Source: Pirellulales bacterium
GTDB taxonomy: Bacteria > Planctomycetota > Planctomycetia > Pirellulales > JADZDJ01
Assembly (NCBI GenBank): GCA_035656635.1
Contig: DASRSD010000053.1
Span: 1 to 45,425, forward strand
Reading direction: 5' to 3'
DNA length: 45,425 nt
Below the pieces are notes generated by a model. The model was not told where the DNA came from and did no database searches. It saw nothing but the letters and a program-made list of their open reading frames with translations. Position numbers and translations under genes: made by a program. Positions 14,016-20,221 of the stretch are shown here, one piece after another (position 1 is the first letter of the stretch; the number at the start of each line of letters is the position of its first letter).

Positions 14016-14807
14016 TTACAGAAATTTTGGTTCGCGCTTTTCGATGAACGCCGCCAGTCCTTCTGCAGCCGCTTCCGTCGTGCGTGCCGTAGCACTGACC
14101 GCTGCGCCCGCAGTTAGCAGTGTGTTCAAATTCTCGCCGATGGTTTCATTGAGCATCCGCTTGGTCAACAGCATGGCTTCGGGCGCGCAGTCAGCAATTT
14201 CGCCGGCTAATTGATGGGCCCGAGGCCAAAGCTTTTCCCCTGGAATAAGTTCGTGGTAAATACCCATTCGGAAGGCTTCTTCCGCCGGAATTAATTGGGC
14301 GCTTAAAAGCAAATAAGCGGCGCGGCCTGCGCCCAAGCGAAAAACCAACAGTGGCGCGACCAACCCGGCCACAATGCCGCGCTTGGGTTCGGGCAAACCG
14401 AATTTGGCTTCCGGGGCGGCCAACACAATATCACAGGCCAACGCCAGGCCGGCGCCCCCTGCTACCGCTGGACCGCCGACTGCGGCAATTATCGGCTTGG
14501 GCAATTGCAAAATGGCTTCCAGCAAATCGCGATAAGCGGTAGCATCGTCATACCACAATTCTTGGGAGTTGCTCGCGGCAGCAGTCTGCTGCATTTCATT
14601 CAAATCCATTCCGGCACAAAAGGCCGAACCGCTGCCGGCAATGACAACGGTTCGCACTCGTCGCTCCCGACGCAAATCGTCCAAGGCTTGCGTCAATTCG
14701 GCGATCAGTCCGCGCGTTAAAGCGTTGCGTTTGTCGGGCCGATTCAAAATCAATGTGCCGGTATGTTCGTGAATGTGAATTTTTACTAGTGGTGCGCCGT
14801 TGTTCAT
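14016..14807 (-). CDS. Enoyl-CoA hydratase/isomerase family protein (LiuC/AtuE-like)
   Basis: 263 residues, normal crotonase length. The oxyanion-hole segments SAFCAGMDLNEM and GPAVAGGAGLALACD are present, and FGLPEPKRGIVAG carries the catalytic-region Glu. In leucine and acyclic terpenoid breakdown, crotonases of this kind hydrate the glutaconyl-CoA made by the carboxylase. It is the last gene of a four-gene minus-strand operon, 21 bp after the AtuA ferredoxin-like ORF, so a hydratase acting on the carboxyltransferase product is likely. Exact substrate cannot be read from the sequence. Confidence 0.88.
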   Translation of the reverse strand: MNNGAPLVKIHIHEHTGTLILNRPDKRNALTRGLIAELTQALDDLRRERRVRTVVIAGSGSAFCAGMDLNEMQQTAAASNSQELWYDDATAYRDLLEAILQLPKPIIAAVGGPAVAGGAGLALACDIVLAAPEAKFGLPEPKRGIVAGLVAPLLVFRLGAGRAAYLLLSAQLIPAEEAFRMGIYHELIPGEKLWPRAHQLAGEIADCAPEAMLLTKRMLNETIGENLNTLLTAGAAVSATARTTEAAAEGLAAFIEKREPKFL

Positions 14808-14828
14808 AGAATTCTGCAGTTATGGATA

Positions 14829-15179
14829 TTAGATCCGCAACATTTTTTTCAAATCTGTTTCTGATGGAGCGGGAAGCGGCAAATCAAGAATAGCCATACT
14901 TAATAGTTTGCCTTGCGTGTCAATTCGCAACGATTGGCTGGCCCCGCCGGCTAACGCATGAAGTAGTAAAAAATTGAGTGCGCCGAGCTTGGGCAGTTCA
15001 AATCGATTGACTTGACTTGGTTTCAGGCTAGCAAAGAAATCGGCTACACGTTCGGCAGTTAATTCCGATTGCAAAAACTGAAAACCTGTTGGCGTGTAAG
15101 CAATCACACCAATGTTGGCATGATTTCCTTTGTCCCCACTGCGAGCATGTGCAATTTTACTAAGCGGAATCGACGGCAT
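14829..15179 (-). CDS. AtuA C-terminal ferredoxin-fold-like protein
   Basis: 116 residues, beginning IPLSKIAHARSGDKGNHANIGVIAYTP, the signature of the domain found at the C-terminus of AtuA proteins. KLGALNFLLLHALAGGASQSLRID is also typical of that domain. Here it is a separate ORF placed 24 bp after the AtuA body. The two products probably associate. In the atu cluster of Pseudomonas, AtuA is needed for growth on acyclic terpenes, but its reaction is not firmly known. Confidence 0.85.
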   Translation of the reverse strand: MPSIPLSKIAHARSGDKGNHANIGVIAYTPTGFQFLQSELTAERVADFFASLKPSQVNRFELPKLGALNFLLLHALAGGASQSLRIDTQGKLLSMAILDLPLPAPSETDLKKMLRI

Positions 15180-15203
15180 GGTAGATCTTCACGTTGACGG
15201 AAA

Positions 15204-16541
15204 TTAAATCCACTGCTTCGCAGTTTTGACCGAAATCGACGGTTTAACGAATTTTTTTGGCATCAGCGTAGGCCAATAAGCGAATACTGGCCGCACCTGT
15301 GGACGGCCCGTGGCATAACCGGCGATGCCAGGGGGCCCGCTAGTGATAAGTGGAGCAAATTCTTTCGTAAATCGTTCCACGGCTTTCTGACGAGAATCGT
15401 GTGCTGAGACGCGTAACACAACCTGTTTGGCGTCGATATGATTATCGCCCAAACATTCAATCAATGTCCGCTCCAACTTGAAGCCGGCACGTTCCACTCG
15501 CTGCAAAATCAACTCGCCGCAGGCCTGGGCCTTCTTCACGCAATCTTCACCGTAAATGAGCAACTGGCCGCTGGCCATAAATCCATTTGAATAGGCTAGC
15601 GAAACTTTGTAATTTTCCGGAGCCGGCCTACCCGTGGCGCCACGAACCAATACCCGATCGGTTCCAATTTCTTCAACTTCCACCGTCGTAAAATCGACAT
15701 CGACATCAGGCGTTAAATAGTGGGTAGGATCGCCGATTTCATAAACAAGTTGCTCGATTACCGTGTGCCTATTCACTGTCCCACCGGTGCTATTGGGCTT
15801 GGTAATGATGCACGATCCGTCGGCGTTGATTTCGGCGATGGGGTAACCGGCATTGGCCAAATCCAGATTTTGCCAGTGTCGGTATAGGCCGCCAGTAACT
15901 TGTGCGCCGCATTCGATTAAATGCCCCGCGACACTAACGCCGGCTAAGAAATTCCAATTCTCCCACTCGTGGTCCAATTCGTGCATCGCCGGGCCAACCG
16001 TCAGCGATGCATCTGCCACCCGGCCAGTGATGACAATCCTTGCCCCATCGGCCAAGGCGTTGACAATTGAGTGCGCGCCTAAATAGGCATTGGCGCTTAC
16101 AATCGGTTGACGTAATTCGGAAAGAGGTTGGTGAGTGTCGAGATTCTCGAATTTGCAGCCGGCGGCCTGAAGTTTTTCCAGGCGCGGCAGTAAATCGTCA
16201 CCGATCACAACGCCGATGGCGGTTTCGCCTAATTCGGCGGTGGTCAGAATGGCTCCAACTGCCGCAGCACATGCCAGCGGATTCACACCACCAGCATTGG
16301 TGACAATTTTCAATTGTCGTTGTGTTTTTAGTGCGGGCAACAAACTTTTCAGTACATCTAGAAAATCGGTCGCGTAGCCCATTGCGGAATTTTTCTCGCG
16401 CTGTCGAGCCAAAATTGACATTGTCAATTCGGCCAAGTATTCCAGCGTGAGATAATCGACACACGCACCTTCCACCAACAGCCGCGGCGCATCCAAATTA
16501 TCTCCGAGAAATCCAGCGCCGTTAGCGATTTTGATTGTCAT
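15204..16541 (-). CDS. AtuA-family protein (DUF1446), N-terminal body
   Basis: 445 residues. Family motifs include IANGAGFLGDN at the N-terminus, VDYLTLEYLAELTMSILARQR, VTNAGGVNPLACA, ITGRVADASLTVGPAMHEL and the ITKPNSTGGTV loop. The C-terminal ferredoxin-like part of longer AtuA proteins is missing and is supplied by the next ORF. It follows the carboxyltransferase with a 55-bp gap. A role in branched-chain or terpenoid acyl-CoA catabolism is inferred from context; no catalytic mechanism can be assigned. Confidence 0.9.
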   Translation of the reverse strand: MTIKIANGAGFLGDNLDAPRLLVEGACVDYLTLEYLAELTMSILARQREKNSAMGYATDFLDVLKSLLPALKTQRQLKIVTNAGGVNPLACAAAVGAILTTAELGETAIGVVIGDDLLPRLEKLQAAGCKFENLDTHQPLSELRQPIVSANAYLGAHSIVNALADGARIVITGRVADASLTVGPAMHELDHEWENWNFLAGVSVAGHLIECGAQVTGGLYRHWQNLDLANAGYPIAEINADGSCIITKPNSTGGTVNRHTVIEQLVYEIGDPTHYLTPDVDVDFTTVEVEEIGTDRVLVRGATGRPAPENYKVSLAYSNGFMASGQLLIYGEDCVKKAQACGELILQRVERAGFKLERTLIECLGDNHIDAKQVVLRVSAHDSRQKAVERFTKEFAPLITSGPPGIAGYATGRPQVRPVFAYWPTLMPKKFVKPSISVKTAKQWI

Positions 16542-16596
16542 GTCAATTCTGGGCGCTGGCTGTGAATTAAATTTTCGCTATTTGTTTGTGCCGCCC

Positions 16597-18222
16597 TTAC
16601 ACCTGAAACACGCCCAGACGGAATGGCTCTGGCTCGACGTACCGAGTTGCACATTCTAGGGCGAAGATTAATGCTTCACGGGTAACCGCGGGATCCAAAA
16701 TGGCATCGATCCAGCCGCGTGCGGCGGCGTAACGGACATCCGTCTGGCGCAGGTAATCGGACTTCACGGTGTCGCGAAGTTGCTCTAATTCGGCGGCGTC
16801 CACATCGCTGCCTTCACGTCGCAGACTTTTCACCGCTACCTGCAACAACGTGTCCGACGCCTGTTCGGCTCCCATGACTGCTACCTGGGCAGTCGGCCAC
16901 GCGAAAATGAATCGTGGATCGAACGCCTTTCCACAGAGTGCATAGTTGCCCGCTCCATAGGAACCGCCGGTAATAAGAGTGACTTTCGGCACCCGACTAT
17001 TGCTGATGGCGCTTACCAATTTGGCACCGGCCTTAATGATCCCGGAGCGTTCTGCGTCACGCCCAACCATAAATCCGTTGACATCTTGCAGAAACAAAAT
17101 CGGCAGCCAATCTTGATTGCAATTCATCACAAACCGCGCGGCCTTTTCGGCGCTATCAACGTACAGGACACCACCGAACTGGTACGGGCCATCGGCGGGA
17201 CGTACTCGATGATGTTGATTCGCTACGACGCCCACTGTGAAACCGCCCAATCGAGCTGTGCCGCAAACAACGGTTTGGCCATACTCTGGTTTGAATTCAT
17301 CGAAGCTGTTGGCATCGAGCAAACATTCCAGAATATCGCGCACTTCGTATTCGCCGTGGACACGCTCCGATAAAATTCGAAGAATCTCGGCCCTCCCAAG
17401 TACGGGAGCTTGTTCTTCATCGCGCCGAAACGGCGGTATCGATTTTGGATCGTCCGGCCGTACCGCTGCCGCCAAACGGCGCAGGCGTTCCAAGCAGGCT
17501 TCGTCGGTCACATCACGATAATCGATGGTGCCGCTCACCTGAGCGTGCATTGCCGCGCCCCCTAATTCTTCGTGCGAAACTTCCTGTCCAATCGCACTGC
17601 GCACCAGTGCGGGCCCGGCCAAATACAGGCCCGAATCTTCAGTCATCAGCAGTTTATCACACAGTACAGGCAGATAACCGCCGCCGGCGACACAGTTTCC
17701 CATAATCGCGGCCGTCTGTTGCAAGCCCATGGCCGAAATGACAGCGTTGTTGCGAAAGATGCGGCCAAAATCATCTTCGTCGGGAAAAACATCTTCCTGC
17801 AGGGGCAGAAAAATGCCGGCCGAATCTACCAAATACACGATCGGCAGCCGATTTTGCACCGCGATTCGTTGTGCCCTAAGAACTTTTTTGGCTGTAGCGG
17901 GAAAGAACGCGCCGGCTTTCACGGTGGCATCGTTGGCGATAATCATGTGTCGCCGGCCGCTGATGGCGCCAATGCCGGTAACAACGCTAGCGGCGGGTGC
18001 ACCGCCCCATGGGCTGTACATTCCCCATGCAGCCCACAAGCCAAGTTCAAAAAAGGGAATGTCCGAATCGAGGAGTTTTTCGATTCGCTCGCGCGCCGTG
18101 AGACGGTTCTTTTTGTGTTGCCGTACGATGGCCGCCAACCCACCCCCCAGTCGAATATCGGCCTCCTGTTCGGCCAAGTGAGCAATAAGCTCAGGCAAAG
18201 ATAATTGATCAGCCATAGACAT
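16597..18222 (-). CDS. Acyl-CoA carboxylase carboxyltransferase (beta) subunit, methylcrotonyl/geranyl-CoA type
   Basis: 541 residues, the usual length. Signature regions include LGGGLAAIVRQHKKNRLTARERI near the N-terminus, NDATVKAGAFFPATAKK, LVDSAGIFLPLQEDVFPDEDDFGRIFRN, and GGSYGAGNYALCGKAFDPRFIFAWPTAQVAVMGAEQA in the second crotonase-fold half. The enzyme moves carboxyl from biotin to a branched unsaturated acyl-CoA. It needs a biotin carboxylase/BCCP alpha subunit, which is absent from this window. First gene of the operon, with a candidate operator 86 bp upstream. The AtuA neighbours favour a methylcrotonyl or geranyl-CoA-like substrate over propionyl-CoA. Confidence 0.92.
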   Translation of the reverse strand: MSMADQLSLPELIAHLAEQEADIRLGGGLAAIVRQHKKNRLTARERIEKLLDSDIPFFELGLWAAWGMYSPWGGAPAASVVTGIGAISGRRHMIIANDATVKAGAFFPATAKKVLRAQRIAVQNRLPIVYLVDSAGIFLPLQEDVFPDEDDFGRIFRNNAVISAMGLQQTAAIMGNCVAGGGYLPVLCDKLLMTEDSGLYLAGPALVRSAIGQEVSHEELGGAAMHAQVSGTIDYRDVTDEACLERLRRLAAAVRPDDPKSIPPFRRDEEQAPVLGRAEILRILSERVHGEYEVRDILECLLDANSFDEFKPEYGQTVVCGTARLGGFTVGVVANQHHRVRPADGPYQFGGVLYVDSAEKAARFVMNCNQDWLPILFLQDVNGFMVGRDAERSGIIKAGAKLVSAISNSRVPKVTLITGGSYGAGNYALCGKAFDPRFIFAWPTAQVAVMGAEQASDTLLQVAVKSLRREGSDVDAAELEQLRDTVKSDYLRQTDVRYAAARGWIDAILDPAVTREALIFALECATRYVEPEPFRLGVFQV

Positions 18223-18394: not shown

Positions 18395-20221
18395 TCAAAA
18401 TCCACCGTCGACCGCTTTGGAAGAATATAGGGGTAGATAGCGATAGTACACTTCCAGTGTGAGGATGGCCAGCGACGTGTTGAGCAGCCGGCCCCCTTTA
18501 TCGTCATGAAAATCGGGGAAGTACCAACTGCCGTTTTCGTGCCCTTCGGTGGCTTGCGTGGCAATCAGATAATCGCGCATTTTTTTGTTCCAGCGCTCCC
18601 ATTGCGAACCGCCGTGGTGGTACATCACTTGAGTGGCGTAGTAATTGAAGTACATGTTCGTTTCGGAGGGGCCCAATTTTTCCAGAATTGCCACGCCTGC
18701 ATTCAAAGCCGGGTTGTTTCGCCCCCAACCCAAGTACATACGGCAGAGCAAGCCGACGGAAGTTGTGGTGGCTCCGCCATTACTAGGAAGCGTGTAACCG
18801 TAGTAGGCCCCCTTTTCGTTCTGCACGCTGTCGAGAAATTTGTTCGCCAGGAAAAACGCGGGGGAAGAAACATCCAAGCCGGCCATCTGGGCGCTTTTGA
18901 GCGCCATCAGCTGCCAACCGGTCACACTGGTGTCGCCTACTTGCCCGGGAAAGTATCGCCAACCGCCGCCGCGATGATCTTGCGCATACAAAATGAAATT
19001 GACCGCATTTTGAGCATAAGGTCGCAAGTTGGAATCTTTTGACATGGCGTACGCCTCGCACAACACAATCGTGGTCAGCCCTTGCGCATACATGGTTCCT
19101 TCCTGCAAATCGCCCCCTTGCGGAGTGACCAACATTTTCGTGCCTAGATAATACAGTCCGTGATTTACTTGTTCGGCATAAGGCCCTTCCTTGTGCGTGT
19201 AGCCGGCACCGTAAAATGGCAACAGAGCCAAGGCGGTGGCGGCAGTGGTGGAAGTTTCACGACCCGGGTTGCGGCATAAATTTCCACACGGGGCACCATC
19301 AAAATTGAATCGCCAACCGCCGTCCTCGTGCTGATGGGCCAGCAGCCATTTCAGACCGCGCTCTACGGCCGCCTCACTTCGTTCGGAACCGCCTCCGGAG
19401 CCGACCAACTGCGCTCGACGTTCCGGTGACCGTCCTCCTAAACCGCCGCCGCCTTTGCCCATGGGTTGCCCCCACGGTACGCCGCCCCCGTCGGCCGAAA
19501 ACGCAGCAGCCAAAGGATCAACCTCTGGTAGTTGTGTAGTGAGATGGCTTTTCAATTTACTTGCAGTTCCTAATTTCGGCACGCCCAAAGGCGTATCTTC
19601 CAAGGCCGACCCGAATAAATCGCCGCTGGGTGAAGCAGAGGCGGCGCCCGGCAGCCGGGACTGCGAACGATCGGCGGGGGACGTTTCACCAGGCAATTCT
19701 TCCGACAAAGGCTCGTCACTGCTGACGGTGTGGACATTCAAATTCACGGGCGAAATATCTTTGATAACACGGTGCATCAATAAGCAGAGCATCACAAACA
19801 GCGTCGCATGCATCAAAGCACTGGTGAACCAGGCACCGGTCTGCTGATGGAACGGCCACATCCGTCGCATTAGCGACAGACTGGTTTCGCTGGGAATGGC
19901 ATTCAACTGGGTCGCGATAGTAGTGGATTGCTCCGACGCAGACTGAGCAGAGGAAGCAAAATTTGCAGCATCAGCGGCCGCCGACTTCTCTGCGGCAGGC
20001 AGTTCGGGCGCTGCTGTATTTGTGGACACCACGGGAGGCGGTGCTGGTTGAGTCATGTTTGGAGCTACTAGATCTGCTTTGAACGGCACACCACGCCAGC
20101 CCCGCGAGGAAGGCAGATTTGTTTTGTCGACGGGAAAACTGGGATCGGCCGAACCCAATTTCACCGGCGATGGGGACACATTGACGGCAGATGGAGTTTC
20201 ACCAGGCATCGCTGAATTCAC
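18395..20221 (-). CDS. Membrane-anchored prenyltransferase/squalene-oxidase repeat protein
   Basis: 608 residues. Residues 1-115 are a Pro/Ala/Ser-rich disordered tail. One transmembrane helix lies at about 131-152 (FTSALMHATLFVMLCLLM). A second low-complexity linker follows, then from about residue 285 an alpha/alpha toroid domain with repeated GGWRF/GGWRYFPGQ-type motifs of the squalene cyclase fold. The DxDD motif of true hopene cyclases is not seen, so it is unlikely to be a triterpene cyclase. Such proteins are common in planctomycetes and have no established role; binding or scaffold function outside the cytoplasmic membrane is an inference. Confidence 0.85.
   Translation of the reverse strand: MNSAMPGETPSAVNVSPSPVKLGSADPSFPVDKTNLPSSRGWRGVPFKADLVAPNMTQPAPPPVVSTNTAAPELPAAEKSAAADAANFASSAQSASEQSTTIATQLNAIPSETSLSLMRRMWPFHQQTGAWFTSALMHATLFVMLCLLMHRVIKDISPVNLNVHTVSSDEPLSEELPGETSPADRSQSRLPGAASASPSGDLFGSALEDTPLGVPKLGTASKLKSHLTTQLPEVDPLAAAFSADGGGVPWGQPMGKGGGGLGGRSPERRAQLVGSGGGSERSEAAVERGLKWLLAHQHEDGGWRFNFDGAPCGNLCRNPGRETSTTAATALALLPFYGAGYTHKEGPYAEQVNHGLYYLGTKMLVTPQGGDLQEGTMYAQGLTTIVLCEAYAMSKDSNLRPYAQNAVNFILYAQDHRGGGWRYFPGQVGDTSVTGWQLMALKSAQMAGLDVSSPAFFLANKFLDSVQNEKGAYYGYTLPSNGGATTTSVGLLCRMYLGWGRNNPALNAGVAILEKLGPSETNMYFNYYATQVMYHHGGSQWERWNKKMRDYLIATQATEGHENGSWYFPDFHDDKGGRLLNTSLAILTLEVYYRYLPLYSSKAVDGGF

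Follow-up and report, generated by a model that had tools for sequence, protein, structure and literature searches.

A conserved carboxyltransferase–AtuA–hydratase operon of Pirellulales with a candidate two-subunit lyase and no recognizable dedicated alpha chain

In the 45,425-nucleotide stretch of a Pirellulales bacterium analysed here (the window; contig DASRSD010000053.1 of assembly GCA_035656635.1), four minus-strand open reading frames adjoin between positions 14016 and 18222, with gaps of 55, 24 and 21 bp. They encode a beta-type carboxyltransferase (CT) of 541 aa (16597..18222; PF01039, 432 bits); AtuA, 445 aa (15204..16541; PF07287, 476 bits); an AtuA_ferredoxin protein (AtuFd), 116 aa (14829..15179; PF23544, 104 bits); and an enoyl-CoA hydratase/crotonase of 263 aa (14016..14807; PF00378, 189 bits). 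Both AtuA-family scores exceed the gathering score. A sigma-70 and terminator scan gave values close to those of shuffled sequences. A sequence-only reading of this DNA had described a CT–AtuA–hydratase operon devoid of alpha subunit, acyl-CoA dehydrogenase and lyase. The operon lies where it had been placed, AtuFd being an extra gene that the reading left unnamed, and in whole-genome searches the window's contig was free of matches to biotin carboxylase, biotin/lipoyl, the HMGL family and acyl-CoA dehydrogenase. The absence of an alpha subunit is genuine, and conserved, and that of the dehydrogenase was confirmed. The claim of a missing lyase held for the HMGL family but is probably wrong as a whole, because AtuA and the 116-aa protein together make a lyase candidate.

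Among 80 related loci found with AtuA, 43 hold a CT and 36 hold CT, AtuFd and hydratase together, a recurrence that argues against a chance arrangement. At E ≤ 1e-5, alpha chains, AccC, AccB and pyruvate carboxylase were matched in none of the 80. Across 117 genomes of the order, CT and AtuA occurred together in 45, CT without AtuA in 1, AtuA without CT in 4 and neither in 67, counting CTs from 65% identity upwards and AtuA of both types where full-length, in related, hence not independent, genomes; nine whose AtuA-family matches were all weak and partial were scored as AtuA-less. Counting against a joint pathway, no CT was seen nearby in 28 of the 69 loci with at least 1.7 kb upstream of AtuA; in some of the genomes concerned (G010, G011) it is encoded elsewhere. 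A second type of operon (type B) is a separate, GCC-like set with an alpha chain and a fused AtuA, the alpha chain being present in 15 of the 117 genomes among the matches listed.

We searched the genome for an unpaired alpha subunit and found none. The biotin carboxylases found were AccC and pyruvate carboxylase, with no others; the one free biotin carboxyl carrier protein (BCCP) lies beside AccC; and nothing resembling the dedicated BC, BT and BCCP chain of methylcrotonyl-CoA carboxylase (MCC) was detected. The other CT-domain places were AccA and AccD alone, and no complete liu or atu operon with its own beta subunit was found elsewhere. Completeness is 95.6%, over 190 contigs, which leaves a small doubt about such absences. 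The same alpha-less CT nevertheless recurs in genomes across the order and, outside the phylum, at loci of Opitutae. Scoring the best ten candidates per genome, 31 of 46 CT-bearing genomes of the order had no long alpha chain among the matches listed; with all candidates scored, this applied to 20 of 21, most of those with stated completeness being 92–99% complete. AccC was the sole biotin carboxylase found in G004 (99% complete), G079 (96%) and G125, and the alpha chain of G001 adjoins a different CT, 36% identical. By contrast, CT-bearing G124 gave no AccC match, only one of pyruvate-carboxylase size, which counts against sharing. Together, the lack of an unpaired alpha subunit and the recurrence of the alpha-less CT support the suggestion, already raised from the sequence, that this enzyme uses a shared one, and the best reading is that AccB/AccC would serve it.

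The closest PDB matches of the window CT were AccD1 (438 bits), human MCC beta (436 bits) and, third, 9tps (434 bits), compared with 333 bits for geranyl-CoA carboxylase (GCC) and 262 bits for the propionyl-CoA carboxylase (PCC) 1vrg. Both oxyanion-hole regions, AGGG and GGSYGAGNY, align as in MCC, GCC and PCC beta chains. In the available text of PMC4673880, MCC and GCC are told apart by Phe191 in the former and by Gly plus a three-residue deletion in the latter. The window CT has an aligned phenylalanine, Phe152 (codon 17767..17769, minus strand; residue positions counted along the alignment), lacks the deletion and carries an MCC-type GAGNY signature. Geranyl-CoA, considered as a substrate, was ruled out by this pocket.

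A phylogeny compared the CT with MCC and GCC-like chains. From a CT cluster of 43 ORFs (4 from Fibrobacteres), the tree took 16 loci and the window as type A, plus 4 Fibrobacteres, 7 type-B, 8 plasmid and 2 reference rows; GCC itself was absent, and rooting was by midpoint and two long rows. Type-A CTs were not placed within the clade (support 98/97) that unites GCC-like proteins with MCCs, including those of human and P. aeruginosa; they thereby stand apart from the characterized MCC beta chains despite the MCC-type pocket, and their own unity was weak (67/62). All type-A rows displayed share a C-domain insertion of 14–17 residues; in the window it comprises 14 residues after VANQ (approximately residues 337–350; 17173..17214, minus strand). 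It is absent from the Fibrobacteres, type-B, human and P. aeruginosa CTs in the alignment, from which ORFs of 500 aa or less were excluded and in which identical strings were displayed once. Judged from sequence, the likeliest substrate of this MCC-like but separate lineage would be 3-methylcrotonyl-CoA.

That missing parts might lie elsewhere was borne out for the acyl-CoA dehydrogenase (ACAD), encoded at three places in the genome. The copy on contig C90 shares 54% identity with that of locus L141, which sits 48 bp upstream of CT. In Planctomycetota loci, a thiolase-cluster gene precedes CT (7 loci) or an acyl-CoA-synthetase-cluster gene follows the hydratase (16 loci), both clusters being named from one member each by Pfam, and four Fibrobacteres loci have the order ACAD–AtuA–AtuFd–CT–hydratase. 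The hydratase is putatively of the 3-methylglutaconyl-CoA type; isohexenylglutaconyl-CoA hydratase (4zu2) stands sixth in its PDB list, so this match is not diagnostic. A point against the pathway is that no E2 of the branched-chain type could be named in the genome as a source of isovaleryl-CoA.

A search of the genome for HMG-CoA lyase yielded none above the NF004283 cut-off, and the same was true of all 117 genomes of the order. Since AtuA-bearing and AtuA-less genomes alike gave no such match, the lack of this enzyme cannot be ascribed to AtuA; 15 of the 117 carry a dedicated GCC/MCC-like alpha chain among the matches listed, yet none has an HMG-CoA lyase above the cut-off. Classical leucine degradation through that lyase was rejected on this ground. 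A CitE-like (R)-HMG-CoA lyase was likewise rejected as a general replacement: the single PF03328 protein of the genome is closest to HpaI/GarL aldolases, and six CT-bearing genomes (G004, G023, G039, G073, G079 and G084) gave no PF03328 match.

The structure models point to another candidate. Predicted AtuA (pLDDT 94.6) and AtuFd (pLDDT 89.4) matched separate chains of one PDB entry, 9evf, entitled "Citramalate lyase - ADP - pyruvate complex", and for each model this was the only structure match at E ≤ 0.001. Both matches span the whole length: AtuA aligned with chain A over 415 residues (E 2.8e-23, Z 31.7, rmsd 3.3) and AtuFd with chain B over 100 residues (E 3.7e-4, Z 10.8, rmsd 2.9). The PDB, whose titles and molecule names are our source for 9evf and 9erq, labels subunit A of citramalate lyase an AtuA-family protein, CmlA. 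A profile of 45 AtuA proteins reaches CmlA (E 1.3e-4; 0.005 for the best stretch), and the GG, GRxxD, EC and YExxDP motifs are retained; the AtuFd profile brought up no meaningful sequence relative in the PDB, so its match to CmlB is one of fold. At 15–16% identity to 9evf, a shared fold shows neither function nor substrate. The structure alignment for AtuA covered the window plus 44 of the 80 loci, and the alignment for AtuFd the window plus 20 loci. On these models, the 'missing' lyase is probably a CmlAB-like pair, with AtuA as the large and AtuFd as the small subunit. In the available parts of PMC4847356 and PMC9973270, the lyase role of AtuA is read off its position within the atu cluster, in terms such as 'characterized or tentatively identified' and 'speculated'. 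Against this, PMC4097962, in the portion available, credits Pseudomonas LiuE with the isohexenylglutaryl-CoA lyase step. Our literature searches found no paper on 9evf/9erq and none joining 'HMG-CoA lyase' with 'AtuA', and no title on DUF1446 treated AtuA function.

Other genomic settings of AtuA bear on its reaction in both directions. Three haloarchaea have a degradative HMG-CoA reductase followed by AtuA and AtuFd; one of them, Halorarius, also has a classical HMG-CoA lyase (287 bits), which counts against AtuA as that lyase. In Natrinema, hydratase–AtuA–AtuFd has CT, ACAD and a 2-oxoacid dehydrogenase in its vicinity. According to the accessible text of PMC4682846, the methylaspartate cluster of E. 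coli O157:H7 holds a DUF1446 gene, and its citramalate cleavage step was not found.

We propose with moderate confidence that the operon encodes the carboxylation, hydration and cleavage steps at the heart of a catabolic pathway resembling liu and atu. A beta-methyl enoyl-CoA, most likely 3-methylcrotonyl-CoA, would be formed by an acyl-CoA dehydrogenase from another part of the genome; CT would carboxylate it with carboxybiotin from housekeeping AccB/AccC; the hydratase would yield a tertiary alcohol of the 3-hydroxy-3-methylglutaryl-CoA type; and AtuA–AtuFd, as a two-subunit lyase of the CmlAB fold, would split this alcohol, presumably with ATP/ADP and with loss of an acetyl unit at the free-acid end, leaving thiolase as the last step. 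A bolder version, which we advance tentatively as possible, makes AtuA–AtuFd a new class of ATP-dependent lyase for tertiary 3-hydroxy-3-alkyl acids. Joined to the AccB/AccC-run, MCC-like CT lineage, it would activate as an acyl phosphate the free carboxylate of HMG-CoA, or that of isohexenyl-HMG-CoA, citramalate or citrate, releasing an acetyl unit (perhaps acetyl phosphate) and leaving acetoacetyl-CoA or 3-oxoacyl-CoA for thiolase. Such an enzyme would account both for the acetate-releasing Atu step and for how a leucine-type pathway could do without HMG-CoA lyase.

Several alternatives compete with this proposal. The substrate of AtuA–AtuFd might instead be a tertiary hydroxy acid in free form, such as citrate or citramalate, or some other intermediate, while an unrecognized enzyme cleaves the HMG-CoA-type product, as the solved relative (a citramalate lyase), the citrate symporters upstream of AtuA–AtuFd in 3 of 16 plasmid loci and the frequent separation of AtuA from CT would suggest; the near one-to-one occurrence with CT in the order (45 together, 5 apart) and the haloarchaeal reductase neighbours make this somewhat unlikely. 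We consider it unlikely that CT, still served by AccB/AccC, acts on propionyl-CoA or some branched acid, with AtuA working on that route's product or independently. Its branching position and unusual insertion would fit, as would Opitutae locus L158, where methylmalonyl-CoA mutase genes precede CT. The match to 9tps, named a propionyl-CoA carboxylase beta, would likewise fit, but at both diagnostic sites this protein is itself MCC-like in the alignment, and the window's pocket and GAGNY signature are of MCC type. A hydratase makes little sense next to propionyl-CoA carboxylation.

The hydratase and CT reactions are both reversible in principle, and Myxococcus has an alternative isovalerate route that could serve as a model: the hydratase would dehydrate an HMG-CoA-type acid and CT decarboxylate the product to an isovaleryl-type CoA for branched lipids. 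The genome, with neither HMG-CoA lyase nor branched-chain-type E2 named, would suit such a reversal; we regard it as very improbable, as the thiolase, acyl-CoA synthetase and ACAD neighbours indicate breakdown and a lyase encoded next to CT would compete for the HMG-CoA-type acid. Least probable of all is that an alpha subunit was missed in an unassembled part of this 95.6%-complete genome, given the repeated absence in relatives and in all 80 related loci.

The proposed catabolic core combines traits of several known systems. With MCC (LiuB/LiuD, alpha6beta6), the window CT shares its general sequence, pocket and GAGNY motif, but differs in lineage, insertion and the want of a dedicated alpha chain. 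As in the Liu (leucine/isovalerate) system, a carboxylase is followed by a hydratase, with ACAD elsewhere or, in relatives, adjoining; unlike it, the operon lacks LiuD and a LiuE-type lyase above the cut-off, and AtuA/AtuFd hold the lyase position. The acyclic terpene utilization (Atu) system also places AtuA beside a carboxylase and hydratase, whereas here the pocket is not GCC-type and AtuA is split between two genes. CmlAB (9evf, 9erq) shares the fold of both subunits and the two-subunit split (about 450 + 105 aa), but the genomic setting here is one of CoA-ester degradation rather than citramalate. Archaeal ACC/PCC of Sulfolobales, in the available text of PMC3199775, likewise distributes CT, biotin carboxylase and BCCP over different chains; it is a three-subunit enzyme, whereas the biotin carboxylase and carrier proposed for the window's CT belong to a set of AccA, AccB, AccC and AccD. 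TIM-barrel HMG-CoA lyases (LiuE/MvaB) and the CitE-like Rv2498c, from the part of PMC6689899 available, catalyse the reaction on HMG-CoA proposed here; the AtuA structure matches listed (VIA-align) include no such lyase, which excludes nothing.

That both AtuA subunits match a single solved citramalate lyase in fold turns an earlier guess into a defined biochemical test. If AtuA–AtuFd is a lyase, it would close, for the 49 of 117 genomes of the order that bear AtuA, the gap left by HMG-CoA lyase. If our reading of CT is correct, AccB/AccC of acetyl-CoA carboxylase would be able to serve a second, MCC-like carboxyltransferase, and 'acyclic terpene utilization' proteins of organisms that may not use terpenes could receive names based on their reactions.

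The operon lies on the minus strand and comprises a beta-type carboxyltransferase (CT; 16597-18222; Pfam, 432 bits), AtuA (15204-16541; 476 bits), a 116-aa protein matching PF23544 (AtuA ferredoxin-like, AtuFd; 14829-15179; 104 bits) and an enoyl-CoA hydratase (14016-14807; 189 bits), separated by 55, 24 and 21 bp. The three genes named in the sequence-only reading are all present; it left out the PF23544 gene, the member that matters most for the lyase question. The upstream neighbour (18395-20221) has weak squalene-cyclase-repeat matches, and several related loci have tblastn relatives of it close to the operon.

As that reading noted, the operon lacks a biotin carboxylase, and a search of its own genome (4.90 Mb, 95.6% complete, 190 contigs) for an alpha chain, the dedicated biotin-carrying subunit, returned only AccC, in a 453-aa frame, and a pyruvate carboxylase of 1,149 aa as carriers of the biotin carboxylase C-terminal domain. 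The window, 45,425 bases long, is one complete contig of this genome. CT domains were found in the window CT, AccD and AccA. Biotin/lipoyl domains occur in six places: AccB, adjoining AccC; pyruvate carboxylase; two 2-oxoacid dehydrogenase E2 chains, the first above the 2-oxoglutarate E2 cut-off, the second nearest to pyruvate E2 yet under that cut-off; and proteins of 689 and 138 aa that appear membrane-fusion-like and GcvH-like, respectively, from their sequences. These identities therefore leave a single free biotin carrier found in this genome.

This CT (at least 65% identity) is present in 46 of 117 genomes of the order. Thirteen of these carry the alpha chain of a second operon type (type B) and two another alpha-like chain; among the matches listed in the other 31 (best 10 candidates per genome scored) there was none. 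When every candidate was scored in 21 CT-bearing genomes, an alpha-like chain appeared in one (G001), adjoining a different CT that is 36% identical to the window CT. AccC was the sole biotin carboxylase match, without pyruvate carboxylase, in genomes G004 (99% complete), G079 (96%) and G125; G124 had only a match of pyruvate-carboxylase size, and the second carboxylase of G050, split across contigs, reads as having the spacing of pyruvate carboxylase. No alpha chain, AccC, AccB or pyruvate carboxylase match lay near any of 80 named AtuA loci. The absence of an alpha chain beside the window's kind of CT (type A) is conserved.

Type A runs CT-AtuA-AtuFd-hydratase. Other operons of this bacterial order, type B, run CT-alpha-AtuA, sometimes with an acyl-CoA dehydrogenase (ACAD) ahead of CT; their AtuA and AtuFd are fused (about 590 aa), and 15 of the 117 genomes have their alpha chain. 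By the rule for methylcrotonyl-CoA (MCC) versus geranyl-CoA (GCC) carboxylase pockets in Jurado et al. (PMC4673880), type A (Phe, no deletion) is MCC-like and type B (Gly, three-residue deletion; seven rows, L069-L078 loci) is GCC-like, and these type-B operons suggest geranyl-CoA-like substrates in planctomycetes. In a 38-row tree, rooted at its midpoint and containing two long rows, type A falls outside a clade (98/97) that joins the MCCs of human and P. aeruginosa with type B, the Fibrobacteres CTs and six of the eight plasmid CTs. Type A as its own group is weakly supported (67/62); every type-A row printed has an insertion of 14-17 residues after the VAN motif. Against the PDB, the window CT scored 438 with AccD1, 436 with human MCC, 434 with 9tps (named propionyl-CoA carboxylase beta) and 333 with GCC.

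A candidate exists for the missing dehydrogenase: of the three ACAD places in the genome, the one on contig C90 shares 54% identity with the ACAD 48 bp upstream of the CT at locus L141, and 36-38% with the ACADs that neighbour AtuA in four Fibrobacteres loci. The search for a classical HMG-CoA lyase had another outcome. HMGL-family places in the genome are two isopropylmalate synthases, citramalate synthase and pyruvate carboxylase; NF004283 was over cut-off in none of the 117 genomes, in 3 of 14 controls and, among 17 additional genomes or records, in Halorarius alone, and the candidate in its place is AtuA/AtuFd. PF03328, the family that includes the (R)-HMG-CoA lyase Rv2498c (PMC6689899), matched in 81 of 117 genomes. 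The single member here is nearest to HpaI/GarL aldolases, under their cut-offs, and none was found in G004, G023, G039, G073, G079 and G084, all bearing type-A CT.

The AtuA model, built from 45 sequences (pLDDT 94.6, pTM 0.90), has as its sole PDB match at E≤0.001 chain A of 9evf (E 2.8e-23), 'Citramalate lyase - ADP - pyruvate complex', with a structural alignment of 415 residues (Z 31.7, 16% identity; second-best structure, Z 10.1 over 99 residues). The AtuFd model (pLDDT 89.4) likewise matched only chain B (E 3.7e-4; Z 10.8 over 100 residues; runner-up, 6.7). That two separate models lead to the two chains of one complex is hard to explain by chance. The AtuA sequence profile also reaches the subunit A molecule, which carries the name 'Acyclic terpene utilization AtuA family protein | Citramalate lyase, subunit A (cmlA)', at E 1.3e-4, with 0.005 for the best stretch. 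We read G84 G85, G173 R174 D177, E210 C211 and Y267 E268 D271 P272, among others, as invariant across the 45 rows and CmlA.

In the proposed order, ACAD would act first, followed by CT with carboxybiotin-AccB, the hydratase and AtuA/AtuFd. The one hint that CmlAB-type catalysis may use ATP is the ADP in the 9evf title; if it does, the lyase would activate HMG-CoA at its free carboxylate and split off an acetyl unit, and the remaining acetoacetyl-CoA would pass to thiolase. Such a reaction would also fit the Atu pathway, in which acetate is released (PMC4847356, PMC4097962). Because of its pocket and partners, CT probably uses 3-methylcrotonyl-CoA. Against this substrate count the lack of an identified isovaleryl-CoA source in the genome and methylmalonyl-CoA mutase genes ahead of CT in one Opitutae locus, where a B12-binding/MeaB fusion, a mutase-type protein and an unmatched 119-aa ORF precede it (L158:1726-5218).

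CT or AtuA/AtuFd may instead have other roles. The 9tps protein is among the best CT matches; AtuA has low identity to the solved citramalate lyase and stands without an adjoining CT in many loci; Halorarius carries AtuA plus a classical HMG-CoA lyase; that lyase was not found in the 117 genomes, AtuA-bearing or not; and PMC4097962 credits LiuE with the Atu-pathway lyase step. Against another substrate for CT stands its MCC-like pocket.

Most of the 80 loci, found with AtuA, come from Planctomycetota, many under the labels Pirellulales or Isosphaeraceae; four are from Fibrobacteres, two are Opitutae-type and one is a haloarchaeal record. CT is nearby in 43. Of the 69 loci whose upstream sequence reaches 1.7 kb or more, 28 show no CT nearby, though some of their genomes (G010, G011) encode it elsewhere; of the loci with room for them, 58 of 74 have AtuFd and 45 of 69 have the hydratase. 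Among type-A relatives, seven loci have a thiolase-cluster gene before CT, and 16 have an acyl-CoA-synthetase-cluster gene. One Fibrobacteres locus (L130:1-4881) has a POR-type 2-oxoacid oxidoreductase, 3-hydroxyacyl-CoA dehydrogenase and thiolase, then ACAD-AtuA-AtuFd-CT-hydratase. Two Fibrobacteres genomes hold a further biotin carboxylase (G120:C101 and G121:C15; frames of 1,245 and 1,137 aa) additional to AccC and pyruvate carboxylase.

Matches occurred in 161 plasmid records, of which 16 neighbourhoods were read (seven with 7-kb and nine with 5-kb flanks). CT was present in seven, PF23544 was the small gene after AtuA in all nine split cases scanned, and no HMG-CoA lyase was annotated in the 16, whose feature tables are incomplete. 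A degradative HMG-CoA reductase directly precedes AtuA-AtuFd in two from haloarchaea (Halalkalicoccus, Salinigranum) and on the Halorarius chromosome (TIGR00532, 444 bits), a possible mevalonate-degradation unit (L164:5703-8681, L168:5733-8672, L197:3733-6696). Natrinema has CT, ACAD, hydratase-AtuA-AtuFd and a 2-oxoacid dehydrogenase inside 15 kb, on both strands. On a Rhodococcus gordoniae plasmid (L167:5952-8658), a phosphate acetyl/butyryl transferase (PF01515, 268 bits) overlaps the AtuA start, which would suit acetyl phosphate as product. A citrate:proton symporter lies directly upstream of AtuA-AtuFd in three neighbourhoods (L193, L195, L196), which suggests that some members of the family act on a citrate-like compound. 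The E. coli O157:H7 methylaspartate cluster has a DUF1446 gene, and a citramalate cleavage enzyme was not found there according to PMC4682846. These settings suggest that AtuA substrates are tertiary hydroxy acids needing C-C cleavage.
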